A DNA stretch of 64,000 bases from Hymenobacter taeanensis. Lineage in GTDB: Bacteria; Bacteroidota; Bacteroidia; Cytophagales; Hymenobacteraceae. Position numbers and translations under genes: made by a program. The DNA is taken from contig NZ_CP053538.1 in assembly GCF_013137895.1 (NCBI RefSeq), positions 1,301,501 to 1,365,500 of the forward strand, in the 5' to 3' direction. Of the stretch, positions 1 to 64,000 are shown piece after piece. The notes under the pieces are model-generated. The model saw only the letters and a list, made by a program, of their open reading frames with translations, was not told the origin of the DNA and ran no database searches. The first letter of the stretch is position 1. Each line of letters begins with the position of its first letter.

Positions 1-138
1 ACGCACGGGGAATACGGGAGGTGAGTACTTAGCAAAGAACGGCATCTGGAAGGAAACGCTGCGTGGCAGCACAACTGGCCTAAAGCCTAGTTAACTTGTC
101 TGTAGGCCCGATCATGCATTCAGGACTATTAAAAGCCC

Positions 139-240
139 GTCATGCTGAGCTTGCCGAAGCATCTCTGCCGCTTTGGTGTTGACAGGTCTAGGCCAGTAGT
201 TAGCCAGAGGTAGGGATGCTTCGGCAAGCTCAGCATAACG
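139..240. repeat. Intergenic inverted repeat with CTAGGCCAGTA core
   Basis: Two arms, 142-162 and 216-236, are perfect reverse complements over 21 bases and continue imperfectly on both sides. The spacer holds TCTAGGCCAGTA at 187-198, the same core (on the other strand) found in the elements near 7.1 kb and 31.4 kb. The rest of the 308 bases before the first gene holds no coding sequence that I can support. Looks like a REP/MITE-like intergenic element. Confidence 0.75.
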
Positions 241-308
241 AAGCATCTCTTGCACCTATGTAGGTAATAGCCTAGGCCACCTCTGCAAAACCAACGTAGG
301 TTTGTGGC

Positions 309-1235
309 ATGTCTGCTCCCATCTCCCCTTCGCGCGCATCTATTCTGCTGGCCTTTGCGGCCCTCTACATTATCTGGGGTTCTACCTACCTGGGTATCCG
401 GTTCGCCATTGATTCTATACCGCCCTTGCTGATGGCGGGCACGCGCTACGCATCGGCGGGGGCTCTGCTATATGGCTACATGCGCTGGAAGGGTGAGCCC
501 GCCCCCACACGGCAAGGCTGGTTCACGGCTCTTATCATTGGCACCTGCCTGCTGGCCTTCGGCAACGGCGGTGTAACGCTGGGCGAGCAGTACCTCCCCT
601 CGGGCCTGACGGCACTGCTGGTGGCTACGGTGCCCATGTTTCTGGCGCTATTGGGCTGGTGGAGTGGCCTGGCCAGCCGCCCGGCTCCGCTGGTAGCGGT
701 GGGTCTGGCCCTGGGCCTGGGCGGCGTGTACCTGCTGGCCCGCACGCCCGGCGCCAGCCACGTAGCCCTACCGGGCCACGAAACGCTGGGAATGGCGCTG
801 GTGCTGATTGCGGCGCTGGTGTGGGCCATTGGCTCCCTGTATTCCAAGAAAAACCAGCCGGCCCCCTCACCCTTTGTCTCGGGTGGCATGCAGATGCTGT
901 GTGGCGGGTTGGTAATGCTGGTGGCAGGCCTCATCAAAGGTGAGACCACCGGCTTTGAGCTGGCGCAGGTCACTACCAAGTCGTGGCTGGCTTACGCCTA
1001 TCTGGTTACGTTTGGGTCGATTGTGGCTTTCACCGCCTACATCTGGCTGCTGCGCGTAGTAGAGCCAGCTATTGCGGGTACGTATGCCTTTGTAAATCCC
1101 GTGGTGGCCGTACTGCTGGGCTGGGCATTTGCCGGTGAGCAGCTAAATGCGGGCATGCTCGGTGGGGCCGCGCTCATTGTGGTGGCCGTGGCACTGGTGG
1201 TACTTGGCGGGCGGCAGAAAAAGGTGGGGCCGTAA
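309..1235 (+). CDS. EamA/DMT-family transporter
   Basis: A 308-residue, strongly hydrophobic protein with the layout of drug/metabolite transporters: two tandem EamA halves (about residues 12-145 and 160-300), about ten membrane segments in total. The start of the first helix, ALYIIWGSTYLGIRFAI, is the classic EamA N-terminal signature, and the proline-bearing APLVAVGLALGLGGVYLLA segment closes the first half. The family exports small metabolites such as amino acids, purines or drugs across the inner membrane; the substrate cannot be read from the sequence. It stands alone, 108 bases before the next gene on the same strand. Confidence 0.9.
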   Translation: MSAPISPSRASILLAFAALYIIWGSTYLGIRFAIDSIPPLLMAGTRYASAGALLYGYMRWKGEPAPTRQGWFTALIIGTCLLAFGNGGVTLGEQYLPSGLTALLVATVPMFLALLGWWSGLASRPAPLVAVGLALGLGGVYLLARTPGASHVALPGHETLGMALVLIAALVWAIGSLYSKKNQPAPSPFVSGGMQMLCGGLVMLVAGLIKGETTGFELAQVTTKSWLAYAYLVTFGSIVAFTAYIWLLRVVEPAIAGTYAFVNPVVAVLLGWAFAGEQLNAGMLGGAALIVVAVALVVLGGRQKKVGP

Positions 1236-1343
1236 TTCCCCCACGTTTTCCAGGCCAGACTCAGGTAGTTATCACGCACTACCGTCTCCTCTTTTCGCGT
1301 TTCCCCTCGTACGTTAACGCCCCGCCCGCTCGCTCCTTCCCCC

Positions 1344-4079
1344 ATGCGCTATCCTTTCCTTCCCGTCGGTTTCCTACTCCCCCTAGGCCTGTTGGGCTCC
1401 TGCCAGATGCAAAAATCCACTACTCTTACTGCGGCGGCTACTGCTGCCGCACCGCCCGTGTGGCAGTCGGCTGCTTATACCGTCTACCGCGATTCGCTGG
1501 TGCAGGGTATGCACACCGCCCGGGCGCTTTCGCGCACGGAGCTGACTTCTGATTACCAGAGCCCCGCCAACGAGTTCCAGAGCCCTCAGGTCAGCTTCAA
1601 GTTCAGCCTCAATGGCAAAGACAATGAGATGCCGCCGGGCCAGGACCACACCTTCATGGCCATTCCGAAAGCCGACGGCACTGGCCTCGAAACGCCTCTC
1701 ATTGTGTTTGGGCAGCACTACGTAGACAAAACGCTGGTACCCGCCAATACTTACCTGGCCCCCAACACCCCCCTGAAGATCAGGCTGGATCTGCGGCCTT
1801 TGCTGGCCGCGTTTCAGCAGCAGGGCTATTACCAGCTCTACAACGGCCAGAAGCTCTATAAAGACGATTTCAAGCATGTATTTGTGGCCGGCAACACCAC
1901 GCCGCTGAGCTGGGATTTCGACAACCTCATCAACAAGCCCCAGCTGGAGCTGAAAGACCCCGACGGTGACGGTATCTACGAAACCACCCTCACGCTCAAC
2001 GCCCACTCCGACGCCAAAACCACCGCCAGCAGCTGGAAGCAGAACCTCGATGTCTCGGGGTTTCCGCAGCTCACCTCCAACTACCCCCTGCTGGATGCCT
2101 TATACAATATGGCCCTGGAGGAAGCCAAACGCGCCGTGGAGCCCGATGGTACTTTCCGGACCGGCCAAGAGTGGGCGGGCGTCTGGACCCGCGACATCAG
2201 CTACAGCATCATTCTCTCGCAGGCCCTGCTGCAGCCCGAAGTTGCCAAAACCAGCCTCATGCGCAAGGTCACGCCTGAGGGCCGCATCATTCAGGACACC
2301 GGCACGGGCGGCGCCTACCCCTGCTCCACCGACCGCATCATCTGGGCCACGGCCGCCTGGGAAATCTATAAAGCCACCGGCGACGAGGCCTGGCTGCGGC
2401 AGGTGTACCCCATCATCAAGAACTGCATCGAGGACGACCAGCAGGTGGCCTACGACCCGGTTACGGGGCTGGTGCGCGGGGAGTCATCGTTTCTGGATTG
2501 GCGCGAGCAAACCTACCCCAAGTGGATGCAGCCCGCAGACATCTACCAGAGCGAAACGCTGGGCACCAACGCGGCCCACTTCCAGGGCAACCAGGTGCTG
2601 GCCCTAATGGCCGAGCAGCTAGGCCACCCCGAGGTAGCTGCTAAACACCACAAGCTGGCCGAAGGCATCAAAGCAGGCATCAACCAACACCTCTGGTTGG
2701 AGGAGAATGGCTACTACGGACAGTACCTGTATGGCCGCAACTTTCTCTCCGTGTCGCCAAAGGCAGAGGCGCTGGGGGAGGCCCTGACGGTGCTGTTTGG
2801 CGTAGCCGATGAGGCGCGGGCCCGTACCGTAGTGGCCAGCACGCCCGTACTGGACTACGGCGTACCCTGCATCTACCCGCAGATTTCCGGTATTCCACCC
2901 TACCACAATAATGCGGTGTGGCCCTTTGTGCAGAGCTACTGGGGCCTGGCCGCTGCTAAAGTGGGCAACGAAGCTTCCTTTATGGAAAGCCTGATGGCCG
3001 TGGCTCGCCCCGCCGCCATGTTCCTCACCAACAAGGAAAACTTTGTGGCCAGCAACGGCGACTTCGCCGGCACCCAGATCAACAGCAGCAACATGCTCTG
3101 GAGCCTTTCCGGCTCGTTGGGTCTAGTGTATAAAGGCTTGTTTGGTATGGATTTTCAGGCTGACCGCCTCACTTTCCGGCCCTTCGTACCGCAGGCGCTG
3201 CAAGGCACCCGTAAGCTCACCGGTTTCAAGTACCGCCAATCTACGCTAGATGTGGAGCTGCTAGGCTACGGCCGCACTATTCGCAGCATCACGCTAGACG
3301 GGCAGCCTCTCCACGATGCGACCATACCCGCCACGCTTACGGGCTCTCACGCTATTCGTATTGAACTGGCTAATGAGTCCCCTGCCGCGGCATCCCAGAA
3401 TAAAGTGCCGCACCACATAGCGCCCATGACGCCAGCAGTAGCCTACACCAACGGCCGCCTCACCTGGGCTGCTGTTGAAGGAGCCAACGCCTACCAGGTG
3501 CTGCGCAACGGCCAGTTTGCGGGCCGCACTACCACACCAGAGTTTGCCGTGCCCACACCAGTGGCCTACACTGAGTACCAGGTGCTGGCCGTTGATGCCT
3601 CCGGGTTCGAGAGCTTCGCCAGTGAACCGTTGCCAATAGGGGCTGAGAAATTCCGCCGCACTTATGAGCTGGAAACCGCGGCGGCGAAATCTGGCAAACC
3701 ATACCACGGATTCACGGGTAGGGGTTTCGTGGAAATTAGCACCACCCATAATCAGGCGCTAACCACCCGCGTACAGATTCCGGAAACCGGACTCTACGCC
3801 ATCGATTTCCGCTACGCCAACGGCAACGGCCCCATCAACACCAGTAACAAATGTGCCATCCGTACGCTACGCCTTGGTCAGCAACAGCTGGGTACGGTGG
3901 TGCTTCCTCAACGGGGAGTAGAGGAGTGGTCGGATTGGGGTTTCTCGAACCCGGTAATTGTGCGCCTGGAGAAGGGATCTTATCCGCTGACACTGGCCTA
4001 CGAGACTGCCGATCGGAATATGAATAGCGAAGTCAATCAAGCCATGCTCGATTACCTCCGGGTGACACGCATCAAGTAA
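1344..4079 (+). CDS. Secreted lipoprotein glycosidase, six-hairpin (MGH1-like) family
   Basis: A 911-residue predicted lipoprotein: signal peptide with lipobox LLGSC (Cys20). Residues about 70-225 form an N-terminal beta domain containing DPDGDGIYETTL. Residues about 240-630 resemble the (alpha/alpha)6 six-hairpin fold of glycogen-debranching, trehalase and MGH1-like enzymes, with acidic motifs WTRDISY, SSFLDWRE and a late WSLSGSLGLVYKGLFG. A fibronectin-like segment follows (about 690-760), and the C-terminal 140 residues (ELETAAAK..., FRYANGNGPINTSNKC) look like a CBM35/CBM6-type galactose-binding module. It probably trims oligosaccharides at the outer membrane or cell surface; exact substrate unknown. 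No SusC/D pair is next to it. Confidence 0.75.
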   Translation: MRYPFLPVGFLLPLGLLGSCQMQKSTTLTAAATAAAPPVWQSAAYTVYRDSLVQGMHTARALSRTELTSDYQSPANEFQSPQVSFKFSLNGKDNEMPPGQDHTFMAIPKADGTGLETPLIVFGQHYVDKTLVPANTYLAPNTPLKIRLDLRPLLAAFQQQGYYQLYNGQKLYKDDFKHVFVAGNTTPLSWDFDNLINKPQLELKDPDGDGIYETTLTLNAHSDAKTTASSWKQNLDVSGFPQLTSNYPLLDALYNMALEEAKRAVEPDGTFRTGQEWAGVWTRDISYSIILSQALLQPEVAKTSLMRKVTPEGRIIQDTGTGGAYPCSTDRIIWATAAWEIYKATGDEAWLRQVYPIIKNCIEDDQQVAYDPVTGLVRGESSFLDWREQTYPKWMQPADIYQSETLGTNAAHFQGNQVLALMAEQLGHPEVAAKHHKLAEGIKAGINQHLWLEENGYYGQYLYGRNFLSVSPKAEALGEALTVLFGVADEARARTVVASTPVLDYGVPCIYPQISGIPPYHNNAVWPFVQSYWGLAAAKVGNEASFMESLMAVARPAAMFLTNKENFVASNGDFAGTQINSSNMLWSLSGSLGLVYKGLFGMDFQADRLTFRPFVPQALQGTRKLTGFKYRQSTLDVELLGYGRTIRSITLDGQPLHDATIPATLTGSHAIRIELANESPAAASQNKVPHHIAPMTPAVAYTNGRLTWAAVEGANAYQVLRNGQFAGRTTTPEFAVPTPVAYTEYQVLAVDASGFESFASEPLPIGAEKFRRTYELETAAAKSGKPYHGFTGRGFVEISTTHNQALTTRVQIPETGLYAIDFRYANGNGPINTSNKCAIRTLRLGQQQLGTVVLPQRGVEEWSDWGFSNPVIVRLEKGSYPLTLAYETADRNMNSEVNQAMLDYLRVTRIK

Positions 4080-4308: not shown

Positions 4309-4698
4309 ATGAAAACTTCTGCTACTCTGCCCGACATCCAAACCGAGCGTGACATCAAGACGCTGGTAGATACTCTGTGCCACAAGGCAACTAATGATAC
4401 CCTGCTCGGTGCCAGCTTTGGTGCGGCGGCCCGCATACACTGGCCCCATTACCTCACTACCCAGTACCGTTACTGGAGCAGCACCCTGCTAGGCCACGGC
4501 AGCACCGAAGGCGAGCCACTGCCCGAGCAGGTTGCCCTGCCCCGTAGCGGTCAGCACATTCAGCACTGGCTCAATATTTTCTCCTCTACCATTGAGGAGC
4601 ACTTCTCGGGCTCTAAAGCCGAAGAAGCCAAACAACTCGCCAAACAACTCGCTACCCGCCTGAGCGCTACCCGCTCCCGCGAACTGCCCGTCGACTAA
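4309..4698 (+). CDS. Truncated-hemoglobin (group III) homologue lacking heme ligands
   Basis: 129 residues that align along their length with group III truncated hemoglobins: ERDIKTLVDTL, the HWPHYL segment, YWSSTLLGHG, and HIQHWLNIFSSTIEEHF. Group III globins normally carry FY in helix B and a proximal His in helix F, in a context like P-x-x-H-L-x-L. Here the B10 position is Cys24 (LVDTLC) and the F8 position is Gln74 (PLPEQVALP). Both heme-pocket residues are therefore replaced while the fold signature is kept. It may no longer bind heme in the usual way and may act as a sensor or binding protein. The frame is open and well conserved, so it is not an obvious pseudogene. Confidence 0.75.
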   Translation: MKTSATLPDIQTERDIKTLVDTLCHKATNDTLLGASFGAAARIHWPHYLTTQYRYWSSTLLGHGSTEGEPLPEQVALPRSGQHIQHWLNIFSSTIEEHFSGSKAEEAKQLAKQLATRLSATRSRELPVD

Positions 4699-7106: not shown

Positions 7107-7188
7107 CTGTCATTCCGAGTAAAGCGAGGAATCTGGGTTACTGGCCTAGAGGCTAATTCAGCTTCCTCGCTTCACCTTAGAATAACAG
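7107..7188. repeat. Intergenic hairpin repeat between sucA and sucB
   Basis: Imperfect inverted repeat whose arms begin TGTCATTCCGAG and end CTTAGAATAACAG, with paired AAGCGAGGAA / TTCCTCGCTT segments. The centre contains TTACTGGCCTAGAGG at 7139-7152, matching the core of the elements at 139-240 and 31412-31484. It fills most of the sucA-sucB gap and could affect sucB transcript level or mRNA stability. Confidence 0.8.
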
Positions 7189-11901: not shown

Positions 11902-12429
11902 ATGTCCATTGCGTTATTCCTACTGACCTTCCTATTCCCTCCCCGAACTATCTCCGTCCCTGCCCTGGCACTTCCTTCTACAGTGGCCAGCCTGAGCCCC
12001 CGTCCGGTAGCCGTTGCTTTACCGGTGATGCCCTTAAAAAAGGCGCCCAAGACTTTGTCGTACACCGTTACGGCTACTACTTACTGGCCTGAAAGGGGCC
12101 AGACCGATGATAACCCGATGGAAACCGCTGACGGCTCCATCATTCCTACCCGCCACTCCAGCAAAACCCGCTGGCTGGCCGTTTCCCGCGACCTGCTTGA
12201 AAAGTGGGGTGGCCCCTTTAGCTATGGCGATAAGGTGCGCGTAAGCGGTATTTCCGGCGCCTTAGATGGCGTTTATATCATTCACGATACGATGAACCGC
12301 CGCCACCGCCACTGCGTGGATGTGCTGGTGAACGAGCGTGAGTGTAAAAAAGGTGGCCTAGAAGGGCGCTGGCCCAGCATTAAGCTTAGCAAGCTGCCGG
12401 CCGTTGACCCAACCTGGCAGGCGGGTTAA
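11902..12429 (+). CDS. Secreted 3D-domain (double-psi beta-barrel) protein
   Basis: 175 residues with an N-terminal hydrophobic export segment. From about residue 50 it shows a 3D-domain/RlpA-like barrel: YTVTATTYWPERGQTDDNPMETADGS, KTRWLAVSRDLL, YGDKVRVSG, and the ending GVYIIHDTMNRRHRHCVDVLV, where the Asp residues (HDTMN and VDVL) correspond to the three acidic residues that name the family and are catalytic in lytic transglycosylases of the MltA/YuiC type. Probably acts on, or binds, peptidoglycan in the periplasm. Convergent with the next gene, 15 bases apart. Confidence 0.75.
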   Translation: MSIALFLLTFLFPPRTISVPALALPSTVASLSPRPVAVALPVMPLKKAPKTLSYTVTATTYWPERGQTDDNPMETADGSIIPTRHSSKTRWLAVSRDLLEKWGGPFSYGDKVRVSGISGALDGVYIIHDTMNRRHRHCVDVLVNERECKKGGLEGRWPSIKLSKLPAVDPTWQAG

Positions 12430-13638: not shown

Positions 13639-14040
13639 TTAGCGCGACAGTACATTGCTGACTTTTATCAGCAGCTTGCCTAGCTGGTTAAGGGGGGCAC
13701 TGTAGTTGTCCGAGGTTTCATCGGCTACTTTGTTGGTTTCGGCGCCCAGGGTGGCCAGCGTTTCGGCCAACTCATGCGGCTCCGTATCGGAGGCGTTGAG
13801 CTGCTCACGTAAGGTGCTGAGCTCTTGAATAATTTTGGCTAGGCCAGGGCGCTCTGAGGCGCGCAACACTTCTTCCCAGCGGTCAATTTCAGCCAGCCCA
13901 TGCTTGTCGGCTTTTTTGGGTGCGCCATTATTAAGCAGGTTCAGCGTGTCTTCTAGCAAGGCGCTGTTTTGCTGATCGGTAACCTCAAGCGGAATGGTAG
14001 GCGTTGGGGTAGATTGCGGAGTGGAGGCAGTAGAATCCAT
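13639..14040 (-). CDS. Hypothetical small acidic helical protein
   Basis: 133 residues starting at the Met in 14038-14040 (MDSTASTPQSTPT). After a Pro/Thr/Ser-rich head it is almost wholly helical (DQQNSALLEDTLNLLNNG, LAKIIQELSTLREQLNASD, ETLATLGAETNKVADETSD). No signal peptide, no membrane segment, no recognised family. Longer upstream extensions of this frame would overlap the divergent gene at 14182 and are not helical. Confidence 0.65.
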   Translation of the reverse strand: MDSTASTPQSTPTPTIPLEVTDQQNSALLEDTLNLLNNGAPKKADKHGLAEIDRWEEVLRASERPGLAKIIQELSTLREQLNASDTEPHELAETLATLGAETNKVADETSDNYSAPLNQLGKLLIKVSNVLSR

Positions 14041-14181: not shown

Positions 14182-16131
14182 ATGCTGCACACCTACCAAC
14201 CTACACCTTTTGCTGACGCCGTGCGCCAGGGCCAGTTTGAAGCCCTGGTGGCGGCGCTAATCGCTGAAAGCCAAGCCCCAGACACCCTGTTACTGGGTAA
14301 TTTTCCGCTTGAATCAGGTCCAGAGACCGTTGTGCTGGAGGCAGTAGTAGTGCGGCCACGCAGTATTACTCTGCTGCTGTTGGTGCCCACGGGTGGCCTA
14401 CTCAACATTCCCGATTTCAGGGTGGGGCCGTGGCTGCTCAACGAGGCTCCACTCCTGGGCACCGGTGGTACTGAAAATCCTTTCCAACAGTTTCAGGCCC
14501 AGCGTGAAGCCCTAGCCGCCTGGCTAGCACAGCTGCTACCCACTGAAGCCGCTAACTTAAACTTCATTAGTGGCCTAGTGCTATTTGCTGAGCCAGTACG
14601 TTTCGGGCCGGAAGTGGAAGAGCGCATGAGTTCCGTGCCCGCTGCCTCGGCGTTCCACCTCCTCCCCGACCCGGCCCGTTTCACCCGCCGCTTATCCCAG
14701 TTGGCCTCACCAGAAATTGACCTCTCACCCACCGACCTGCACCTACTCATGGGGCAGCTGGGCCTGGAGTTGCCGCCTACGCCAACTGCCTCGCCCGCGG
14801 CGGCTTACCAGCCCGGCCCAGCCGATCTGCTACGCCAGCAAGCCGGTAAACTCTGGCGTTGGCTGGGCGCCGAAGAGCTAAGCGAGCTGGACCGCACCGA
14901 CTCCGGCTATGAAATTGATTTGGTGGCTATCCGCAATCAGGAGAAGGCTCAGCTGGAAGAACTCAGAGCCAACCTGCAGGCCACGGTAAGCGCGCAACTG
15001 CAAGCCCTGGAAAAACGAGAGGCCGAGCGGGAGCAAAGCCTTGCCAAGTTGCGCGAAGAGCTGGCTGCCGCTTCGCCGGCAGCACCAGAAGCGGCAGCAT
15101 TAGCCTCACGCCTGGCGGCTGAAAATGAGGAGAAAGTTTCCAGCGAGGCCACCATGCAAGCCTACCAGGCGCAGTCGGCGGCCCGCACGCAGGAGCTGGA
15201 GCAAAAGATTCAGCAGCTGGAAGCCCTGATTCGGCAGCTCTCACCAGATATGGCAGGCAAGGCAGCGGCGGTTCCTACTTCTGCGCCAGCGGCTCCGGCA
15301 GCTTCGGGAGTCGCTGCTCCGGCCGCCCGCCCCACCTGGCCTAGAACGCTGCAGTTGCAGTTCCGCCAACCCAAGGCGGCAGCCCAAGCGGTGCGGGCCG
15401 CGTTACCGCGGTGGCGGCAATACGCACGCACGGCCGGCAGTTATGTGCGCCGCTATCCGCGTCGTAGCGCCGCCGTGGGAGCCGCAGTGCTGGCACTGGG
15501 GTGGTGGGGCTTGCACTCTTCCTCGGCTACTCCGCCCACTGCTTTCCGGGAAGGCAACCGCTGGGGCCTACTCTCTGCCAGCGGCGACACCCTGTTGCCT
15601 GCTACCTACGCTTCAATTGGGGAGTTTACCGATGGCCGCGCCATAGTGACACAGAATGGCGTGAAAGGGTTTGTTGATGCGGCCGGTCAGGAAGTGGTAA
15701 AGCCCGCCTACACGGCTCTGTACCCCTATTCCGATGGCTATGCTCGGGCCCGCGTAGGCCAGCTATACACGTTTCTGGATGAGAAGGGGGAAGAGCTCGG
15801 GGCTTTTTACTTCAATGCTCATGACTTTACCGAAGGCTACGCGGCCGTGCGCGACTACCGCGGGTGGTTCTACATTACGGGTCCCGATGTCCCCACCGAT
15901 CCGGTAATTTTTCAGGAGGCCCATCCGTTCAGTAAAGGCCTGGCCCGCGTAAAAACCCGTGGGCGGTTCACCTTTATCACCTCTGATTTCCTGGCCGACA
16001 CCACCGAAGGCACGGCTCCCTTCGGCCGCTACACGCTGGCCTCAGACTTTGATAAGCAAGACCGGGCCCGTGTCAAGCAAGGGGGCCGCACGTTTTATAT
16101 CAACCGGAAGGCGGAAGAGGTAAAAGAATAA
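14182..16131 (+). CDS. Composite protein: NERD-like head, coiled coil, membrane anchor, WG repeats
   Basis: 649 residues in four parts. Residues 1-190 resemble nuclease-related (NERD-like) domains: FEALVAALIAES, LLLGNFPL, TVVLEAVVVRPRSITLLLLV, with an acid/hydrophobic strand pattern, but the family catalytic residues are not certain. Residues about 245-355 form a charged coiled coil (LRANLQATVSAQLQALEKRE). A Pro/Ala linker leads to one membrane helix at about 428-445 (AAVGAAVLALGWWGL). The rest is a set of WG repeats (NRWGLLSASGDTLLPATY, GVKGFVDAAGQEVVKPAY, RGWFYI, KTRGRFTFI), a module often found outside the membrane. It may link a cytoplasmic domain with an exported sensor surface. Confidence 0.75.
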   Translation: MLHTYQPTPFADAVRQGQFEALVAALIAESQAPDTLLLGNFPLESGPETVVLEAVVVRPRSITLLLLVPTGGLLNIPDFRVGPWLLNEAPLLGTGGTENPFQQFQAQREALAAWLAQLLPTEAANLNFISGLVLFAEPVRFGPEVEERMSSVPAASAFHLLPDPARFTRRLSQLASPEIDLSPTDLHLLMGQLGLELPPTPTASPAAAYQPGPADLLRQQAGKLWRWLGAEELSELDRTDSGYEIDLVAIRNQEKAQLEELRANLQATVSAQLQALEKREAEREQSLAKLREELAAASPAAPEAAALASRLAAENEEKVSSEATMQAYQAQSAARTQELEQKIQQLEALIRQLSPDMAGKAAAVPTSAPAAPAASGVAAPAARPTWPRTLQLQFRQPKAAAQAVRAALPRWRQYARTAGSYVRRYPRRSAAVGAAVLALGWWGLHSSSATPPTAFREGNRWGLLSASGDTLLPATYASIGEFTDGRAIVTQNGVKGFVDAAGQEVVKPAYTALYPYSDGYARARVGQLYTFLDEKGEELGAFYFNAHDFTEGYAAVRDYRGWFYITGPDVPTDPVIFQEAHPFSKGLARVKTRGRFTFITSDFLADTTEGTAPFGRYTLASDFDKQDRARVKQGGRTFYINRKAEEVKE

Positions 16132-16205: not shown

Positions 16206-16682
16206 TTAATCCTCCTTGCCTCGGCCTTTGTGCTTGCCTCCCTTTTTATAGTGGCCCTTCGCTTTGCCACGACTGGGTTTGCCAAACCACCGTTGGAGCT
16301 GGCTTATTGCGGCCGGCTCCACCACGTTAGGCGCAGACCGGCCTGCACTGCCGGTAAATAACGCCAAACGCCCATCAGCCTCAGTATCTATGGTGGCGAA
16401 CTGGCCTAGCAGCGTGCAGCCGGCTCCCTCGGGTAGCTTCGTGCGCTGGCCATCGCGCTGCACCACAAACCCATCGCGCGTGACGACGCGGCCATTGGGC
16501 AGATGCGTGTCGCGGGTCATGGGGCGGGCCTCACCGTTGCGGATGAGATAGGTAGTTCCGTCGTGCCGCTGGAAACCATTGCGGATTTGTGCCTTGGCCA
16601 GGCCAGTGGCAAGCATGAGACACGCTGCTACCAACCCATAACGGCGGGCACGCCCAGAACGGATAAAGGCAAAGTCAAGCAA
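16206..16682 (-). CDS. Small secreted protein with repeated dG-rich strands (DUF6799-like)
   Basis: 158 residues. The N-terminal stretch GLVAACLMLATGLAKAQ is a signal peptide with a probable cleavage after AKA. The middle repeats a short motif four times (NGFQRHDGTTYLIRNGE, THLPNGRVVTRDGFVVQRDGQ, PEGAGCTL), resembling the DUF6799 domain of Hymenobacter secreted proteins. The tail is very basic (GKAKGHYKKGGKHKGRGKED). Function unknown; the basic tail might bind nucleic acid or polyanionic surface polymer. Confidence 0.65.
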   Translation of the reverse strand: MLDFAFIRSGRARRYGLVAACLMLATGLAKAQIRNGFQRHDGTTYLIRNGEARPMTRDTHLPNGRVVTRDGFVVQRDGQRTKLPEGAGCTLLGQFATIDTEADGRLALFTGSAGRSAPNVVEPAAISQLQRWFGKPSRGKAKGHYKKGGKHKGRGKED

Positions 16683-16877
16683 AGAAGGGGGAGAGTTGGT
16701 GAAATAAAGAGGGCTAGGCCACTAGCAGGGCTACGGAGCCAGGCCCCGTGGCGTTATGGGCAAGCCAGCCAACTACTACTCACTGGCGCATGGGTTACTT
16801 TTTATCGAGTAAGTGATTAAGGGTTAGAAAGCACTCCCTGTTGTGCTTTACACAACCACCTATCATACGCAAGTACC

Positions 16878-17195: not shown

Positions 17196-17230
17196 TTACG
17201 TACTGGCCTAGGCCAGCACCACAGACCCAC

Positions 17231-25850: not shown

Positions 25851-25882
25851 TTCTTAGTGGCCTAGGCAGCCTGTATTGGCTA

Positions 25883-25920: not shown

Positions 25921-25989
25921 TGCTATTGGTTATTGCTGGAGAGGTGGCCTAGCAGTAAGAGTTGACTACTGCCCAGCTAAACCAGCTAC

Positions 25990-28648: not shown

Positions 28649-28762
28649 GTGGGTATTGAAGTATGGAATGCGTATTACTCAGACACGGTAGCGCTGAAAA
28701 TGTTCCCGAAGTGGTGGCCTAGGTAGTAGGGCTGGCTTAGCAGCCAGCAGGCCCCTGCATAC

Positions 28763-31299: not shown

Positions 31300-31411
31300 T
31301 CTAGTATACATTCGGCCCTTACCAAGAGCATAAGCTCCGCAAAATACACAAATAGCTATAGGTACACTTTTGAAATTTGCAGCATGAGTGGCCTAGCGAA
31401 ACCTATAACTA

Positions 31412-31484
31412 TCATTCCGACGCATCCGGAAGCTGGCTTAGACGCTAGGCCAGTAACACGGCTTCCGTGCGCGTCGGAACGACA
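31412..31484. repeat. Intergenic hairpin repeat with CTAGGCCAGTAA core
   Basis: Imperfect inverted repeat of about 22 bases per arm (start CATTCCGACGC, end GCGTCGGAACG) around GCTAGGCCAGTAA at 31444-31456. Shares its core with the elements at 139-240 and 7107-7188. A GTGGCCTAG also occurs at 31388 and 31491, bracketing the repeat. Confidence 0.8.
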
Positions 31485-35381: not shown

Positions 35382-35395
35382 AGTGGCCTAGCACA

Positions 35396-37191: not shown

Positions 37192-37220
37192 GCTAGGCCA
37201 CTTGCTTAAAGATGCTTAGC

Positions 37221-37748: not shown

Positions 37749-37936
37749 TGGGAAGAAGCAGAAAAAGAAACACTTCACCCGGCACATCCGGGCCTGGAAT
37801 TGGCCGGCCGACGGGTGGCGCCCCACGTTCAGCCTCAGTTGCCGCTTGTACTTAGCTTCTAGGCAGCAACCGTACCAATTTTTTGTAGTCTAGGCCACTC
37901 CGTGAAAAGGCCCCGGCAATTCATCTTCGCAACGCC

Positions 37937-38989: not shown

Positions 38990-39026
38990 GCCTAGGCCAC
39001 TCTACGTGGTTTACCTGGCTCCTGAG

Positions 39027-46984: not shown

Positions 46985-47509
46985 ACAAATAGGTGAATAG
47001 TGGAGGAAGAGCGTGAGAATCCGAATATTCCCATCGTGTCAGATTGAGAATTACGGGCGCAACAAAGATATGTTTAATCTTATGTATAAAGTTATATTCA
47101 TTATACAAAATATCATTATACTTTAAATATTTATATTTTTACATGTTAAAATTAGTATTATTTGGATAAAAAAGTCCTATATATAAGTGCTAAATCAATA
47201 AAAAGTCAAAAATCCATGTATTAACATATTTAACCAAAATAAGAATAATACATATCCCAAAATTGTACCTCCTCGAACCGACATTGATATCTGACTACTT
47301 TTCGGCGATACATTACCCTCTTTTCTGCACGGAGTGCTTGTTGTGGGTGGCCTAGCAAGAGGATTTATCTCTTTTTGGTGAACAGCAAAGCCTGCACGTG
47401 AGTGTAGCACAACTGGGCTTATAGCAGTAAGTCAACTTTTTGGGAGTTTAGACAGTACACACCAACCAGTGCTTAGTATTAATCAGCCACCGTTTCTCTC
47501 TCCTCCACT
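46985..47509. other. AT-rich intergenic region between divergent genes
   Basis: Apart from the promoter box, no coding sequence. 47080-47280 is clearly AT-rich compared with the rest of the window; a GTGGCCTAG word lies at 47347. Confidence 0.5.
47063..47070 (-). promoter_or_regulatory. -7 box TATCTTTG for the T9SS protein gene
   Basis: Minus-strand match to TAnnTTTG, 78 bases upstream of the start. Confidence 0.5.
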
Positions 47510-51381: not shown

Positions 51382-51561
51382 ATAGAACGTACTTCTTGAG
51401 GAGCTTAACGGCTTGATTCCATAAAGGTAACGGCATCCGGCTGGGTAGCTTCTGTGCAGCGCAGAACTGCCGCCCACCCACACGACACGCCTTGTTACGA
51501 GGCAAGGTGAGTTGCCGCCTTGAGGAAGACAAATATTTATACCTCGGCGTGCGCTAGGCCA

Positions 51562-52309: not shown

Positions 52310-53191
52310 ATGCTCCAGGCCCCGCAAGATACGTGTTTTTCCCCCAGGCAAACCTTGCGTTGCCCTGGCGGGCGCGTGCTGGATTTGCGCCGTCCGCAGG
52401 TGATGGGCATCCTCAACCTGACCCCCGATTCGTTCTTTGCCGGCAACCGGATTGGGGCTGAAGAGGAGCTGCTACGCCGCGCCGAGCAGATGCTAGGCCA
52501 GGGGGCGGCCATCCTTGATTTGGGCGGCTACTCCTCGCGACCCGGCGCCGAAGACATCTCTGTTGACGAGGAGAAGCGCCGCCTGCTGCCCGCCGTGGCC
52601 GCCGTGCGCCGTGCCTTCCCTGAGGCGTTTATCTCCGTGGATACCTTCCGGGCCAGTGTAGCCGAAGAAGCCGTAGCCGCCGGCGCCGACATTCTTAACG
52701 ATATCAGTGGCGGCCAGCTCGACGCGGAGCTGCTGCCCACCGTGGGCCGCCTGCAGGTGCCCTACATTCTGATGCACATGCGGGGCACGCCCCAAACCAT
52801 GACCCAGCTCACGCACTACGACGATGACTTGGTTCTGGAGCTGGTGCGCTACTTCCGCGACAAGCTGACGGAGCTGCGGCGCCATGGCGTAACCGATGTG
52901 GTGCTGGACCCCGGCTTCGGGTTTGCCAAAACGCCCCAACAGGGCCACGAGCTGCTACGCCGCCTGCAGGAGCTGCAGGTATTAGGCCTGCCGGTGCTGG
53001 CGGGGCTATCAAGAAAAAGCATGGTATACAAGCCGCTAGGTCTCTCGGCTGATGCCGCACTGGCGGGCACCATTGCCGTCAATACACTGGCGCTGGTCAA
53101 CGGGGCGCGTATTTTGCGCGTACATGATGTAGCGGAGGCTGTGCAAACTGTGCAGCTCGTCTCCAACACTTACCCCCCCTTCTCCCCGTGA
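52310..53191 (+). CDS. folP: Dihydropteroate synthase
   Basis: 293 residues from the Met at 52310. Condenses p-aminobenzoate with dihydropterin pyrophosphate in folate synthesis; sulfonamide target. Motifs: MGILNLTPDSFFAG, LDLGGYSSRPGAE, ISVDTFRASVAEEA, NDISGG, LMHMRGTPQTM, DPGFGFAKT, and GLSRKSM. Its TGA overlaps the GTG of cdaA by four bases, so the two are coupled. Confidence 0.96.
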   Translation: MLQAPQDTCFSPRQTLRCPGGRVLDLRRPQVMGILNLTPDSFFAGNRIGAEEELLRRAEQMLGQGAAILDLGGYSSRPGAEDISVDEEKRRLLPAVAAVRRAFPEAFISVDTFRASVAEEAVAAGADILNDISGGQLDAELLPTVGRLQVPYILMHMRGTPQTMTQLTHYDDDLVLELVRYFRDKLTELRRHGVTDVVLDPGFGFAKTPQQGHELLRRLQELQVLGLPVLAGLSRKSMVYKPLGLSADAALAGTIAVNTLALVNGARILRVHDVAEAVQTVQLVSNTYPPFSP

Positions 53192-54027
53192 TTGGCTCCT
53201 TCACCGTCGGCTTCCTGCGCATTGGCTGGGTAGACGTCATCGACGTGCTGCTGGTCACGGTGCTGTTTTATCAGCTCTACAAGCTGCTGACGGGAAGCGT
53301 GGCGCTGAAGATTTTCCTGGGCTTCATGTCTATTTACCTGCTCTATCTGGTGGTGAAAGCCACCGGTATGGAGTTGCTGACCAGCATTCTAGGCCAGTTC
53401 ATGAGCGTGGGGGTGCTAGCGGGCATTATCCTGTTTCAGCAGGAAATCAGGCGGTTTCTGCTCACCATCGGTAAGGCCACGGCTCTGGACCGAGTTCGGG
53501 TATTTCCGTGGCGGCGCGAGGCGGCTTCGGAGCGCATGAACATCACCCCATTCGTGGAAGCCGCTAAGAGCTTGGCGGGCAAGCAAACTGGGGCGCTTAT
53601 CGCCTTCGCCATGGCCTCCGACCTGAAGTTCTTCGCCGACTCCGGCGACCTGATTGATGCCACCGTGAGCAAGCGCCTGCTCATGAGCATCTTCAACAAA
53701 ACCAGCCCCCTCCACGACGGCGCCGTTATCATCACCCGCGGCCGCATTCAAGCCGCCCGCTGCATTTTGCCCGTCAGCGAAAACCCCGATGTGCCCGCTT
53801 CCATGGGCCTGCGCCACCGCGCCGCCATCGGCCTCACCGAAGTAACGGATGCCATTGTACTGGTAGTAAGCGAAGAAACCGGCCAGATTTCGCTGGTGCG
53901 CGGCGGCGAAGTCTTCCGCAACCTGGCCTCCGCCGACCTACGCGCCCGCCTCAACGAGTTCCTCTTCGACGTAGCCCCCAAGCCGACCGCCTCAACGGGT
54001 TCTACGGCAGCGGAAGTAGCAGCGTAA
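53188..54027 (+). CDS. cdaA: Diadenylate cyclase CdaA
   Basis: 279 residues, GTG start overlapping the folP stop. Three N-terminal membrane helices (VDVIDVLLVTVLFYQLYKLL and beyond), then the DAC domain with the catalytic DGA (177-179, LHDGAVII) and RHR (209-211, GLRHRAAIGL). Makes c-di-AMP, which regulates potassium uptake, turgor and wall homeostasis. The folP-cdaA coupling is common in Bacteroidota. Confidence 0.95.
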   Translation: MIGSFTVGFLRIGWVDVIDVLLVTVLFYQLYKLLTGSVALKIFLGFMSIYLLYLVVKATGMELLTSILGQFMSVGVLAGIILFQQEIRRFLLTIGKATALDRVRVFPWRREAASERMNITPFVEAAKSLAGKQTGALIAFAMASDLKFFADSGDLIDATVSKRLLMSIFNKTSPLHDGAVIITRGRIQAARCILPVSENPDVPASMGLRHRAAIGLTEVTDAIVLVVSEETGQISLVRGGEVFRNLASADLRARLNEFLFDVAPKPTASTGSTAAEVAA

Positions 54028-54094: not shown

Positions 54095-54134
54095 ATAGTT
54101 GGAGCTTATGTGTTCTAGGCCACTTTTTATTGCC

Positions 54135-56843: not shown

Positions 56844-56916
56844 AAGTATAATTTCTACCCTGCGGGAAGAACTTCTACTCATGCGCTCAGAACTAGGCCA
56901 GTCTCTGACAATTAAC

Positions 56917-58109: not shown

Positions 58110-59000
58110 ATGAAACACGTTTCCTCCTTTTTTGGTCTGACGGCCGGCTTACTTGTAGCCGCCGGGGCTTCTGCTTCCGCCCAAAGTCTGGTGAGCGGTT
58201 TCATGTCGGGAAAGCACCACGGCTCTGTGGCCGTTTCTACCACCGCCGAGCACTACAAGCAGGTGTATCTGGTACCCGAAAAAGTAGATATGGTGCCCCT
58301 CTACCGCCAAGTCTACGTGACCTCGGTAAACCTCTACGCCAGCTATGGCCTGACGGATAAGATTGATGCCATTCTGAGCTTACCCTACATCAAGTCAGAA
58401 GGCCGGGCCGATGAGCAGGTAGTGCAGGACCTGGGCTTCCGGAATACTCGTCAGGATTTTCAGGATATCACCGGCGTGCTGAAGTTCAAGTCGTACTCTG
58501 GTACCATTGGCAACTACCTCGTTGACCTGCTGGGAGTAGTGGCCGTGAGCACTCCGTTCAGCGGCTACAAATCGAATACTGGCCTAGACTATATTATTGC
58601 CATCGGCAACCGCGCCACCAAGGTTACTACGCTGGGCGTGGTACACGTGAAAACGGCCTCGGGGGTGTTTGCAACGGGGCAGGCCGGCTATAGCTTACGC
58701 AGCGGCCTCGTGCCCAACGCTTTTCTAGCCGAGACCAAGGTAGGCGTTGCCAGTACTAAGCTCTACGCCGAAGCCCTGGCCTCCTTCCAGAAATCAGCCA
58801 AAAGCGGTACCGATATTCTGCAGCCGGGCTTTGATGGCAACTTCACAGCCACTCGGGTAGATTTTGTGCGCGTGGGGGTGAACCTGTTCCGCCCGCTTAC
58901 CAAAGGCCTGGGTGCCTCCGTGGGCGTCAGCACTTATGTAGCCGGCCGCAACGTAGGCCAGTCAACGGGTGTTTCGGGCGGCTTGTCGTATAATTTCTAG
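58110..59000 (+). CDS. Hypothetical outer-membrane beta-barrel protein
   Basis: 296 residues. Signal peptide (TAGLLVAAGASASAQ). The mature protein reads as an amphipathic beta-barrel (TSVNLYASYGLTDKIDAILSLPYIKSEG, GNYLVDLLGVVAVSTPF, TATRVDFVRVGVNLFRPL) with an aromatic C-terminal end (SGGLSYNF) like outer-membrane porins. Likely 12-14 strands. Substrate unknown. Confidence 0.75.
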   Translation: MKHVSSFFGLTAGLLVAAGASASAQSLVSGFMSGKHHGSVAVSTTAEHYKQVYLVPEKVDMVPLYRQVYVTSVNLYASYGLTDKIDAILSLPYIKSEGRADEQVVQDLGFRNTRQDFQDITGVLKFKSYSGTIGNYLVDLLGVVAVSTPFSGYKSNTGLDYIIAIGNRATKVTTLGVVHVKTASGVFATGQAGYSLRSGLVPNAFLAETKVGVASTKLYAEALASFQKSAKSGTDILQPGFDGNFTATRVDFVRVGVNLFRPLTKGLGASVGVSTYVAGRNVGQSTGVSGGLSYNF

Positions 59001-59055
59001 GTGTTGAGACTAGGCCACATGGCCCTAGCCCGTCATGCGGCATCCTGGCCTGCGT

Positions 59056-60138
59056 TTACTCCCTTCTGAAAAACGCCTGCACCCCTTCCCGGCCGCTGTC
59101 CATCAAGTCTTGCTTCTGGGTATCGGATAAGCGCTTGATCTTGGGATTAAAGCCGCGGGTACTGATACTGACGGTCCGCTCCCAGTCGCGGGGTTGGGTA
59201 GGGTTGAGGTTCTCAATGGCTACCGTGTAGAGAGCTCCCACATACGAGCCAAAGTCGCGGACCTGGTAAGGCGCGAGTTGCTGACGGCCGTTGGGCAAGG
59301 TATCGAGAGCGAGCTGAGCGGGCCGGTCGAGGCGCAGGCCCAGTGTTTCGGGGTTAAAGAGCGGGCCGGTGGCGGGTGCTTCTGTGGCTACACTCCCAAC
59401 TGGTACGTACCGCGCCTCATCAAACAGCCAGATGGGGTAGTTAGCCAACAGGCCTCCGTCAACCAGCACCTCTACGGCCTGCCCTTTCGCGGGGCGCTGC
59501 ACAATGTGGCCCTGGCTATCGAGCAAAACGGCCCGAAAGTATAGCGGAATGCTCATGCTGATGCGCACGGCATCGGCTACGCGCAGGTCGGGATGAGTTT
59601 CGTAGCTGAAAATCTGGGTGCGTTGAGTGGTGAGGTTGGTGCCAGTGGTATACAGGTCACGGTAGCGGGAGGGCTCCTGTTGAGCGAGAGTATGCAACTG
59701 GCCTAGCGTAAGATTGGGGCGCTGCGTTTTGCGGGCTGCCAGCTGGTTGAGGTAGCGGGCCAGCTCGTTGCCGCGGTACCAGCCGTATTGCTTCACAAGG
59801 CGGGTGCCGCCCCAAAAAAACATCAGGCGCCCATCATTCAGCCGCTGAATAGGGGTGTGATTAACTACCTCCACTATTTCCTGGGGAGAGTATCCTACCG
59901 CCAGCAGCGCCGCCTGAATAGCGCCGGCCGAGGTGCCGCCCACGCGGCGTAGGCCAGTGAGCACCCCCTGTTTCTCCAGCTCGGCCAGCGCCCCGCCGTA
60001 GGCTATACCCCGGATGCCGCCACCCTCCATCACCAGGTTCCGGTAGATGGGCGCGGGTGCCTGCCCATACCCAGCAGCGGGCAGGTACAGGAGCAGCCAC
60101 AGGCCTAGCAGGCAACGGATCGGGGGCAGATCGGGCAT
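59056..60138 (-). CDS. Secreted patatin-like phospholipase
   Basis: 360 residues from the Met at 60136-60138 (MPDLPPIRCLLGLWLLLYLPAAGYG, signal peptide). Patatin motifs: oxyanion-hole GGGIRG (39-44), nucleophile Ser70 in GGTSAGAIQ, and Asp227 in VDGGLLANYPIWLFDEAR. Serine-Asp dyad lipase acting on phospholipids. The C-terminal 70 residues lack a translocation barrel, so it is a periplasmic or secreted soluble enzyme. Confidence 0.93.
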   Translation of the reverse strand: MPDLPPIRCLLGLWLLLYLPAAGYGQAPAPIYRNLVMEGGGIRGIAYGGALAELEKQGVLTGLRRVGGTSAGAIQAALLAVGYSPQEIVEVVNHTPIQRLNDGRLMFFWGGTRLVKQYGWYRGNELARYLNQLAARKTQRPNLTLGQLHTLAQQEPSRYRDLYTTGTNLTTQRTQIFSYETHPDLRVADAVRISMSIPLYFRAVLLDSQGHIVQRPAKGQAVEVLVDGGLLANYPIWLFDEARYVPVGSVATEAPATGPLFNPETLGLRLDRPAQLALDTLPNGRQQLAPYQVRDFGSYVGALYTVAIENLNPTQPRDWERTVSISTRGFNPKIKRLSDTQKQDLMDSGREGVQAFFRRE

Positions 60139-61318: not shown

Positions 61319-61807
61319 GTGTTACTGTTGCTAAGCATTGTAGGCACCTTACTGTCACTTATCTGGGACGGAGTATGGCTCGGCTTGATATTCCTGTTGT
61401 TTCGGTTTATCTTCCGTACTCTCGCACGTCGAGGCGGCTTGCAGTTGCATAACCCATTTCAACCGGGCTGGACACAGTTACACCAGCAATACGGAACGGC
61501 ACAAATAATTCGTCCAACCGAATGGATGTCGGGTACAATAGGGGCAGTCAAGTATGACAACGGGCTTAAGTTCAGGTTTGAGACCCAACATTGGGTGCTT
61601 CAGAACATGGACATATCGGGTTTAGTAGTTCGGATTCCGTATGCTGACATAGCAGCATTACAAACGCCGACTTCCTTCCAGATTTCAAGTTTCAGCGAAA
61701 CGGAATATACGCCTGGGATATTTCAGGTTGGGGACGTCAGAATAGAACTTCCCGCTTACTGGGCCGACCAACTGCTACGGCACATGGCCGCCGCGCCAGT
61801 GGCCTAG
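61319..61807 (+). CDS. Hypothetical membrane-linked protein
   Basis: 162 residues from a GTG at 61319, six bases after tdh. Two short membrane segments at the N-terminus (LLLLSIVGTLLSLIWDGVWLGLIF and LLFRFIFRTLA), then a soluble beta-rich domain (FRFETQHWVLQNMDISGLVVRIPY). Its stop codon TAG lies in the word GTGGCCTAG. Family not recognised; read-through from tdh is likely. Confidence 0.6.
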   Translation: MLLLLSIVGTLLSLIWDGVWLGLIFLLFRFIFRTLARRGGLQLHNPFQPGWTQLHQQYGTAQIIRPTEWMSGTIGAVKYDNGLKFRFETQHWVLQNMDISGLVVRIPYADIAALQTPTSFQISSFSETEYTPGIFQVGDVRIELPAYWADQLLRHMAAAPVA

Positions 61808-62659: not shown

Positions 62660-62753
62660 GTGGCCTAGAACAGCTTCAGTAGCCCTTCGTGCTAAGGCAA
62701 CAAGGCCGCTCGCATCAGCGTGAGGTGTTAGGCCACTACTTACTATGCCATAG

Positions 62754-62804
62754 TAATAAAGCACGCCATGTGGAGCTATGGGCTCCGCATGGCGTGCTTT
62801 ATTA
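62754..62804. terminator. 23-bp inverted repeat between convergent genes
   Basis: Arms 62754-62776 and 62782-62804 pair with one mismatch (G-U possible). Lies between DUF3891 and the minus-strand lipoprotein gene at 62821. Confidence 0.85.
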
Positions 62805-62820
62805 TTACAACGTGGGCAAC

Positions 62821-63663
62821 TTAGAGTTTGGTGATGGGGGTTTTGCTGGTCATGACGCCCGCCGGCACTGTATCCGAGGCGTATACGTGGTCGAGTTTGC
62901 GGCCATCTTTGCCATCGGTGCGGTCAGTGGCCAGCATAATGCGGCCGTAGCGGCGGTAGTCGGCCCAGCGGCGGCGGAAGGCGGGCTGCGCATCAGTGGC
63001 TTTCGGGAAGTAAGCCCACTCCTCTACCAGGTTAGTAGCGGGGTTGATGAGCACTTCATACTTGTTGTCGGGTGTCACGCCCACGTTCTTGAAGGTCATG
63101 TTCAGCACTTCGGCGGGCTTGCCATCCATCATAGTGCCGGTGCCTTTGTAAGTGAGCGTTACGCCAGAGTCTTTCAGCTTGAAAGGCATTACCAGCCACC
63201 ACGAGTTGTTTACCCAAATAGGATACATCCGGCTGAGTAGCTTTTGCCCGTCGGGGGTAGCCGAGATGTCTTTGCCGCTGCGGTAGGCCTGCCCCTGCTT
63301 GGTGTTGATGTTATACACGGCCACGGTGCTGTCCTTTTGCCACCGAAAGTCGCCGGTGTGCTTGTCCCAGAGCTGATAAGAGCCGTCCAGAAAGTCCCAG
63401 CCCACGAGGCGGGTTTGCTGCCAGGCCGGGTAGCCACCCATCTGGCGCATTACCTTGTCGGCCAGGGCCAGGGCTTTGGCGTCGGAGCCGGCGCGGTCAA
63501 AATCGGGAGCGGCGGGGAAAGAGGCCGTATCGGTGGCCATGGCAGTGGCCTTACCCGCCTTCTTTTTACCCGAGGGAGAATTTTGCTGACAGGCGGCAAC
63601 ACTAATGGTTAGCCCGGTGATGCACACACTTAGGGCTACTTTGGAGAGGCTACGTACTCGCAT
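62821..63663 (-). CDS. Hypothetical lipoprotein, DUF6503-like
   Basis: 280 residues. Lipobox SVAAC (Cys25). The body (ALADKVMRQMGGYPAWQQTRLVGWDFL, GDFRWQKDSTVAVYNINTKQGQAY, PVMPFKLKDSGVTLTYKG-like and NPATNLVEEWAYFPK) agrees with the DUF6503-type fold of Bacteroidota: a lipoprotein-localisation-like half-barrel of about 230 residues. Probably binds a hydrophobic ligand in the periplasm. Confidence 0.7.
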   Translation of the reverse strand: MRVRSLSKVALSVCITGLTISVAACQQNSPSGKKKAGKATAMATDTASFPAAPDFDRAGSDAKALALADKVMRQMGGYPAWQQTRLVGWDFLDGSYQLWDKHTGDFRWQKDSTVAVYNINTKQGQAYRSGKDISATPDGQKLLSRMYPIWVNNSWWLVMPFKLKDSGVTLTYKGTGTMMDGKPAEVLNMTFKNVGVTPDNKYEVLINPATNLVEEWAYFPKATDAQPAFRRRWADYRRYGRIMLATDRTDGKDGRKLDHVYASDTVPAGVMTSKTPITKL

Positions 63664-63805
63664 GTTGACGGGGAGAAACTGTACCCGATAACCACGTGGT
63701 TTCGGTTCAGCTTGTACGCTAAAGCTACGAATGCTGGCCGTCTTTATCCAACGTAGTTCTGATAGCCGCCGTACTTACCACCATACCCTTCCGTTTTTTT
63801 GCCTT

Positions 63806-64000
63806 ATGCCCGCGCACTACCGCTTATCCGACGTCCTTGGTATTTTGAAAACGACGGCCAGTGAGTTCATGGTGAATAACTCGTTTCGCCACGCGGCGGC
63901 CCTGTCTTACTACACCATCTTCTCGCTGCCGCCTCTGCTAATTATTGTTATCACCACGGCCAGTGCCATTTACGGCACTGAGGCAGTGACTGGCCAGATT
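63806..64000 (+). CDS. YihY/BrkB-family membrane protein (partial, cut by window end)
   Basis: 65 residues from the Met at 63806 to the window edge. HAAALSYYTIFSLPPLLIIVITTASAIYGTEA is the first membrane segment and conserved start of the YihY/virulence factor BrkB family, an inner-membrane protein of about 300 residues. The remainder lies beyond 64000. Confidence 0.85.
   Translation, partial: MPAHYRLSDVLGILKTTASEFMVNNSFRHAAALSYYTIFSLPPLLIIVITTASAIYGTEAVTGQI

Follow-up and report, generated by a model that had tools for sequence, protein, structure and literature searches.

A CTAG-core word iterated through the genomes of Hymenobacter taeanensis and three close relatives

The word in the window and around the chromosome

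The stretch of DNA analysed here, called the window, comprises 64,000 nucleotides of the chromosome of Hymenobacter taeanensis (contig NZ_CP053538.1, positions 1,301,501 to 1,365,500), and inside and between its genes, among them a glycine dehydrogenase gene, it carries many copies of the word GGCCTAG or its complement CTAGGCC. A sequence-only reading of the window had put their number at about 55, and our count came to 56 (31 GGCCTAG and 25 CTAGGCC), with 13.3 expected under an order-2 Markov model; the longer form GTGGCCTAG/CTAGGCCAC occurs 23 times on the two strands together, where the same model predicts 0.9. GTGGCCTAG starts exactly at 31491, 35383 and 62660, three places singled out in that reading, while at 51552, 54112 and 38988 the word lies 2 to 4 bases further on and the plus strand reads CTAGGCCAC; at 61800-61807 it provides, as had been claimed, the TAG stop of the open reading frame (ORF) 61319-61807. 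Taking as genes all ORFs of at least 90 codons, with no trained gene finder, 22 of the 39 window copies of the 8-mer TGGCCTAG are outside genes and 17 inside. With high confidence we place the full word A[CG]TGGCCTAG[CG], which has GGCCTAG at its core, among lineage-specific iterated words like the highly iterated palindromes (HIP) and the DNA uptake sequences (DUS), and it is one of at least three CTAG-core words in different Hymenobacter lineages.

The whole genome (G000; a single contig of 4,879,662 bases, 100% complete by tool estimate) contains 774 copies of the 10-mer AGTGGCCTAG, 386 on the plus and 388 on the minus strand, compared with 2 copies (plus 2, minus 0) of a reversed-word control. 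Word composition and location were studied in a sample of 464 kb, made of the window and 20 stretches of 20 kb around the chromosome, one of which (L002) includes 5000 masked letters. With expectations from an order-3 model, the top 8-mer of this sample was TGGCCTAG (259 vs 19.2 expected), the top 9-mer GTGGCCTAG (137 vs 4.9) and the top 10-mer AGTGGCCTAG (82 vs 1.0). Neither these counts nor those of the whole genome lie near expectation, the outcome that the sequence-only reading had named as refuting. A logo built from the intergenic copies reads A[CG]TGGCCTAG[CG], with sharp edges, a weak preference at a few more positions and nearly zero information beyond about a dozen positions; the copies thus have no homologous flanks, and a longer repeat is ruled out as their source. 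The logo is only partly palindromic. The palindromic relatives TAGGCCTA and GGCCTAGGCC are also over-represented in the sample, and tolerated variants include ACTGGCCTAG (61 copies) and TGGCCTAC (168 vs 44.7 expected). The sample held no multi-copy sequence longer than 300 bp, so a comparison with multi-copy insertion elements gave no result.

Codon or dinucleotide bias, which had been named as a possible full explanation of the enrichment, was ruled out by synonymous-codon shuffling of 314 genes. Genic copies of TGGCCTAG numbered 127, compared with 13.2 +- 3.3 after shuffling, and those of AGTGGCCTAG 25, compared with 1.0, while the control words were not raised and stayed a little under expectation (TGGCCAAG, 26 vs 32.1; TGGCCTCG, 27 vs 33.5). 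Consistent with this, CTA makes up 23.6% of leucine codons after GGC and 10.4% overall. The remaining carriers of the word and the other dialects described below are likewise far over their own synonymous shuffles.

The intergenic share of TGGCCTAG copies in the sample was 42%, for 15% of the bases. When the partly masked L002 was left out, 253 copies remained, of which 109 were intergenic (1.66 per kb; 4.4 copies expected under order 2) and 144, more than half, were genic (0.38 per kb), bearing out the remark that some copies lie in coding sequence. What looked like a GC-poor island in L002 proved to be an artefact of the masked letters, and dropping this stretch alters the location counts little (253 vs 259 copies). 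Between genes, A[CG]TGGCCTA[CG] was densest in convergent gaps (33 copies in 14.2 kb), followed by tandem gaps (46 in 31.8 kb) and divergent ones (7 in 12.3 kb), and the order with convergent gaps highest and divergent gaps lowest was also seen in the relatives G018 and G119. The link to stop codons claimed from the window is real, with 3.0-5.0 copies per kb at 0-30 bp after stops, 1.2-2.8 per kb, bin by bin, between 30 and 200 bp and 27 stops falling within the word itself; it is modest, about two-fold within the first 30 bp, and has no orientation, the 200 bp after stops holding 40 sense and 43 antisense copies in all. In tandem gaps, 21 copies of A[CG]TGGCCTA[CG] point with transcription and 25 against it.

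Distances between neighbouring copies of TGGCCTA[GC] follow an exponential distribution averaging 1.03 kb, which rules out regular spacing; the exception is the overlapping palindromic double TGGCCTAGGCCA, with 10 pairs closer than 8 bp vs 3.1 expected. No strand or replichore order was evident, as judged by eye, across the 21 sampled stretches, and a polar chromosome word of the Chi or KOPS (FtsK orienting polar sequence) kind was set aside on this ground. Two ideas put forward from the window, a transcription terminator and the seed of intergenic repeats, did not hold up in view of near information-free flanks, random orientation to transcription and exponential spacing.

Distribution and conservation in the genus

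Among 120 genomes of the genus, AGTGGCCTAG is abundant in four, namely G000 (774 copies), G119 (1149), G018 (1300) and G071 (1404), here called the carriers, and the other 116 have between 0 and 29. The glycine dehydrogenase gene of G000 is 98% identical to that of G119, 98% to that of G018 and 97% to that of G071, and the next genome follows at 93%; a quick tree built from 50 of the 120 genomes unites the carriers in one clade, with a support of 97 in the Shimodaira-Hasegawa-like approximate likelihood ratio test. The description of the word as species-wide therefore holds with a wider scope, as it marks one clade of four genomes. As for its conservation in other Hymenobacter, raised in the same reading, this is found inside the clade, and some lineages elsewhere have other CTAG words.

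These dialects were searched for in 20-60 kb sampled from each of 29 other genomes, with more genomes added later and one stretch (L041 of G001, 1245 masked letters) omitted. Whole-genome counts gave 540 sites of AACCTAGGTT in G059, 148 in G114 and 143 in G050, with no more than 12 in any of the remaining 117 genomes, and for CCCTAGGG they gave 3302 in G088, 916 in G033, 902 in G021, 177 in G050 and 128 in G114, the remaining 115 having no more than 58 each. In the samples the letters preferred beside CTAG are GC in the clade of H. taeanensis, A[CG] in G059 and G050, CC in G088, [AC]C in G033 and GC or AC in G021, and G047, studied as a sample only, prefers GG. The immediate neighbours of CTAG are mostly C or G across carriers, giving the general form N-S-CTAG-S-N. 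The AACCTAGGTT carriers form one clade; those of CCCTAGGG do not, since forcing them together was rejected (approximately unbiased test, p 0.006), and on the gene tree examined the word labels cannot be accounted for with fewer than four changes. The ratio of observed to expected CTAG (o/e) lies at 0.10-0.20 in three non-carriers, G100, G041 and G035, and at 0.56-1.75 in carriers, and genomes such as G040 have high CTAG without a strong word. Over the genus-wide samples this ratio spans 0.10 to 1.75.

Conservation was followed by comparing 144 kb of the H. taeanensis genome with 140 kb of each of the other carriers, of which 73-100 kb were covered at 81-84% identity. Copies in genes were identical at 25 of 32 orthologous places in G018, 16 of 21 in G119 and 20 of 31 in G071, and intergenic copies at 16 of 28, 13 of 22 and 13 of 25, respectively; control 8-mers were identical at 29-30% of such places. 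The word persists while the sequence beside it changes, and it is kept at synonymous sites too: where leucine is conserved, CTA was retained in 63% of cases beside GGC vs 20% elsewhere. Among one-step variants at orthologous places CCAG and CTGG occur most often, and roughly half of the genic orthologues that are not identical have two or more differences, like control 8-mers. At sites aligned in all four carriers the word is missing only from G000 in 6 cases, from G018 in 2, from G119 in 3 and from G071 in 4, numbers too small for a claim of faster decay in H. taeanensis.

Outgroup letters, where available, show one copy common to the four carriers opposite TGGCCCAG, a single change, and another opposite CGGCATCG, several changes. 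In three outgroup genomes the near-word TGGCCCAG has a density of 27.1 per 100 kb, and in the carriers of 7.5-14.0; this fall of 13-20 per 100 kb is too small to explain the gain of TGGCCTAG, which amounts to 56-103 per 100 kb. Separately, CAGGCCCAG, a near-word of the carriers' AGGCCTAG, is raised in the non-carriers G020 (L026-L027), G022 (L052) and G035 (L097-L098).

The word may also distinguish resident from recent DNA. A stretch of 36.6 kb in G119 (G119:C11:693262-729841, within L094, L161 and L162) lacks an equivalent in the segments aligned from the three remaining carriers and contains no copy of TGGCCTAG, vs about 38 expected from its surroundings, so that it is immediately conspicuous; its CTAG o/e is 0.20, compared with 1.01 around it, and it encodes a C5 methyltransferase and Vsr. 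This stretch, unmatched in the other carriers, is apparently a recent insertion. Five of the nine methyltransferase loci in G018, G119 and G071 were examined, and the four others besides this one lie in 16-kb stretches with 3, 1, 1 and 4 copies, where the median of 48 overlapping 16-kb windows, the word-free stretch included, is 15. In H. taeanensis two unaligned stretches hold 2 copies in 8.8 kb.

Candidate readers of the word and competing explanations

Profile searches for candidate genes covered 20 genomes. In the complete single contig of H. taeanensis the profiles PF00145, PF01555 and PF02384 are without a match (PF02086 and PF07669 were not searched), so none of the three is common to all four carriers; they are patchy, with a match in 5, 11 and 17 genomes, respectively, of the 20 searched for each (one set differs by one genome). 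Vsr has no match in H. taeanensis and is found only in G059 and G119 of the 20, the G119 copy being the one inside the word-free stretch. The CTAG-poor genomes G035, G100, G041 and G003 are without Vsr, and another agent therefore probably depletes CTAG there. ComEC is present in all 20 genomes. PF00437, the profile of the PilB, PilT and type II secretion ATPases, was over the cut-off in none of the 20 (weak matches under the cut-off appeared in three non-carriers), which makes a ComP-like pilin receptor unlikely. In the same phylum, Riemerella columbina prefers its own DNA in uptake, as stated in the part of PMC7965970 used here, and the consulted part of PMC8459023 reports that transformation of R. 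anatipestifer requires ComEC, DprA, ComF, RecA and four proteins without homologues in known transformation machinery; that organism thus seems to use other outer parts than type IV pili.

Two known kinds of iterated word resemble those found here, HIP words in anatomy and DUS in the way they evolve. Like the cyanobacterial words (HIP1 GCGATCGC and the alternate HIPs), the Hymenobacter words have a palindromic core of 4 bp with variable flanks, a similar copy density and both genic and intergenic copies, and they are sporadic across lineages, with one word replacing another; unlike them, they have the core CTAG instead of GATC, a host in Bacteroidota and, in the dialect of H. taeanensis, a mostly non-palindromic form. 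According to the part of PMC4390886 that we draw on, every cyanobacterial genome bearing HIP-type words has at least one fitting methyltransferase, whereas H. taeanensis has none of the three families, so the published explanation of those words does not fit. With the DUS of Neisseriaceae and the uptake signal sequences (USS) of Pasteurellaceae the present words share a sharp-edged unit of about 10 bp in hundreds to thousands of copies, dialects on a fixed core (CTG there, CTAG here), orthologous conservation and absence from an apparently recent stretch. They differ in that no type IV pilus ATPase passed the cut-off, most members of the genus are without these dialects, the general CTAG level shifts too, two dialects are palindromic and a role in uptake is putative here; to our knowledge there are no palindromes among DUS and USS. 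Of these, DUS dialects are described as retaining a fixed core (PMC3630211, seen in part), and DUS as conserved, located in permissive core DNA and missing from recently acquired genes (PMC2397512, likewise). Polar words such as Chi and KOPS are also short and chromosome-wide; here no strand or replichore bias is evident and intergenic enrichment is strong.

The explanation that we favour, with a probability of roughly 0.4, is that the word has been spread by recognition-based drive, most likely as self-recognition in DNA uptake or recombination. A sequence-reading DNA protein would favour word-bearing DNA, and copies would spread by this bias; they would settle where harm is small, that is between convergent genes, near stops and at synonymous codon places, and the dialect would switch once the specificity of the reader changes. 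The most likely step for a putative reader would be the uptake of free DNA or recombination, where the word would serve as a self-recognition signal via a non-pilus receptor, and we put this step at somewhat under an even chance. More tentatively, a CTAG-reading protein of shifting specificity, probably a non-pilus receptor or a recombination or repair factor, may write and keep distinct words in several lineages without methyltransferases. Uptake signal and protein-binding site, two of the options listed in the sequence-only reading, fit the findings, and the whole looks like a fast-changing genome-wide 'self' word.

Several observations weigh against recognition-based drive. Two of the three dialects are palindromes, and copies lost or gained in genes are not more divergent than control 8-mers, unlike the published argument for DUS. 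Scarcity of the word in recent DNA is expected of any slow process, and unaligned stretches in G018 (one, 3 copies in 2.1 kb) and G071 (three, 5 copies in 7.3 kb) have ordinary density. In the carriers CTAG is raised beyond the word as well, so a purely word-specific uptake bias is insufficient on its own. ComEC is equally present in non-carriers, and the null result for PF00437 counts on the same side. Finally, not every carrier shares the intergenic preference, which is weak or lacking in some of the other dialects. Convergent gaps are highest in G071, yet divergent gaps exceed tandem ones there (3.70 vs 2.27 per kb). All three gap types have similar densities in G059 (3.26, 3.26 and 3.58), the intergenic density of G088, at 0.95, is near its genic one of 0.69, and the 7 copies sampled in G021 all lie in genes.

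The raised CTAG is also what would follow from biased mutation or repair that, without methylation, converts near-words to the CTAG word (e.g. GGCCCAG to GGCCTAG) and has no selected function. Carriers at a CTAG o/e of 0.56-0.97, beside the low values of G100, G041 and G035, the drop of TGGCCCAG and the frequency of CCAG and CTGG among one-step variants suggest such a process; since the TGGCCCAG loss is much below the TGGCCTAG gain, non-identical genic orthologues differ at two or more places as often as controls, and outer letters (A, S and T before GGCC) belong to the word, we consider it unlikely, while still a serious contender. The other main rival, which appears less likely again, is that selection maintains the word as a binding site for an abundant protein of the nucleoid or of chromosome organisation. 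Genome-wide spread on both strands, orthologous conservation, scarcity in divergent promoter regions of the sample and the palindromic doubles TGGCCTAGGCCA are all consistent with it, but spacing is otherwise random, replichore or strand order is not evident, near relatives manage without the word and, as a general argument, selection would have to be effective at every single one of some thousands of redundant sites.

The origin proposed for cyanobacterial GCGATCGC, a DNA methyltransferase acting with methylation-directed mismatch repair, can draw on a shared anatomy, since the consulted part of PMC4390886 describes the palindromic 4-bp core, lineage-varying flanks, 0.5-2.5 copies per kb and sporadic distribution. 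The enzyme may have been lost from the H. taeanensis genome; the lack of matches to the three families there, and the location of all five methyltransferase loci examined in word-poor DNA, make this origin improbable here. Vsr causes CTAG depletion in Escherichia coli, and Vsr repair, or its loss, might have shaped the CTAG words; with the gene in only 2 of 20 genomes and absent from four CTAG-poor ones, this is strongly disfavoured. Least probable is that the word acts downstream of genes at the RNA level, as a transcription terminator or otherwise; this reading has the two-fold density right after stops in its favour and, on the other side, random orientation in tandem gaps, near-empty flanks and more than half of the copies in genes.

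If self-recognition by drive is correct, Hymenobacter would provide Bacteroidota with a system of uptake or recombination words, comprising at least three words and four word changes within one genus; our literature searches found no paper on an uptake word in Hymenobacter or Bacteroidota, nor on an over-represented CTAG palindrome. The model in PMC4390886 for the origin and upkeep of iterated words such as HIP, as far as the part consulted goes, requires methyltransferases. Beside it Hymenobacter offers at least four word changes, a complete genome without three methyltransferase families and word-free sister species as controls. Comparing carriers with near sisters could reveal reader genes, and plain DNA competition could probe the uptake hypothesis.

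Copies in the window and further repeated words

The positions of the 39 window copies are given in the table, together with their state in the other carriers; at a few of them the outgroup genomes G035, G100 and G041 could be read as well.

Table. Copies of TGGCCTAG in the window, with setting and state at orthologous places (w/o, without)
Position	Strand	Setting	Relatives
188..195	-	intergenic	kept G018, G119, G071 (coordinate 40188 in comparison)
272..279	-	intergenic	kept G119, G071
2619..2626	-	in ORF	kept G018, G119, G071
4489..4496	-	in ORF	kept G119, G071; G018 has TGGCCCAG
7142..7149	+	intergenic	kept G018
12354..12361	+	in ORF	kept G018, G119
13839..13846	-	in ORF	non-identical in G018, G119, G071
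14571..14578	+	in ORF	kept G018, G119
15337..15344	+	in ORF	not kept G018, G119
16402..16409	+	in ORF	kept G018, G119, G071
16714..16721	-	intergenic	kept G018, G119
17204..17211	+	intergenic; half of palindromic double TGGCCTAGGCCA	kept 4/4 carriers
17208..17215	-	second half of double TGGCCTAGGCCA	kept 4/4 carriers
20127..20134	-	in ORF	kept G119, not G071
25858..25865	+	8 bp past stop of glycine dehydrogenase gene	not kept
25945..25952	+	intergenic	kept G018, G119
27891..27898	+	in ORF	kept 4/4 carriers; TGGCCCAG in G035, G100, G041
28715..28722	+	intergenic	not kept
31389..31396	+	intergenic	kept G018, G119
31445..31452	-	intergenic	kept G119, not G018
31492..31499	+	intergenic	kept G018, G071, not G119
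31673..31680	-	in ORF	kept 4/4 carriers; CGGCATCG in G035, G100, G041
34433..34440	+	in ORF	one-step variants in G018, G119, G071
35384..35391	+	3 bp past stop	not kept
37193..37200	-	intergenic	kept G018, G119
37890..37897	-	intergenic	kept G119, G071 despite diverging flanks
38992..38999	-	3 bp past stop, antisense	not kept
46252..46259	-	in ORF	w/o aligned relative
47348..47355	+	intergenic	w/o aligned relative
51554..51561	-	immediately past stop	kept G018, G119 (coordinate 91554 in comparison)
52493..52500	-	in ORF	kept 4/4 carriers
53389..53396	-	in ORF	kept 4/4 carriers
54115..54122	-	past stop	kept G071
56893..56900	-	past stop	not kept G119
58580..58587	+	in ORF	kept G018, G119
59010..59017	-	between convergent genes	not kept G018
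59699..59706	+	in ORF	kept 4/4 carriers
61800..61807	+	provides TAG stop codon	kept G018, G071
62661..62668	+	2 bp past stop	kept G018

Other over-represented words were met during the genus-wide sampling. CCCTACCCC/CCTACCCC is over-represented strongly in G014 (L036, L037) and more weakly in G060 (L040), possibly as an intergenic word or a G-rich element, and GGGGGGCAA, AAAGCCCCC and like words are strongly raised in G010 (L047), G094 (L104), G105 (L105) and G093 (L110), possibly as part of a longer repeat. The 464-kb sample of H. taeanensis (the window and L001-L020) contains the further repeated 12-mers GTAAGGGCTTTT (16 copies), CGAAGCATCTCT (13) and GTCATGCTGAGC (10), and GAAGCATCTC recurs in G002 too.

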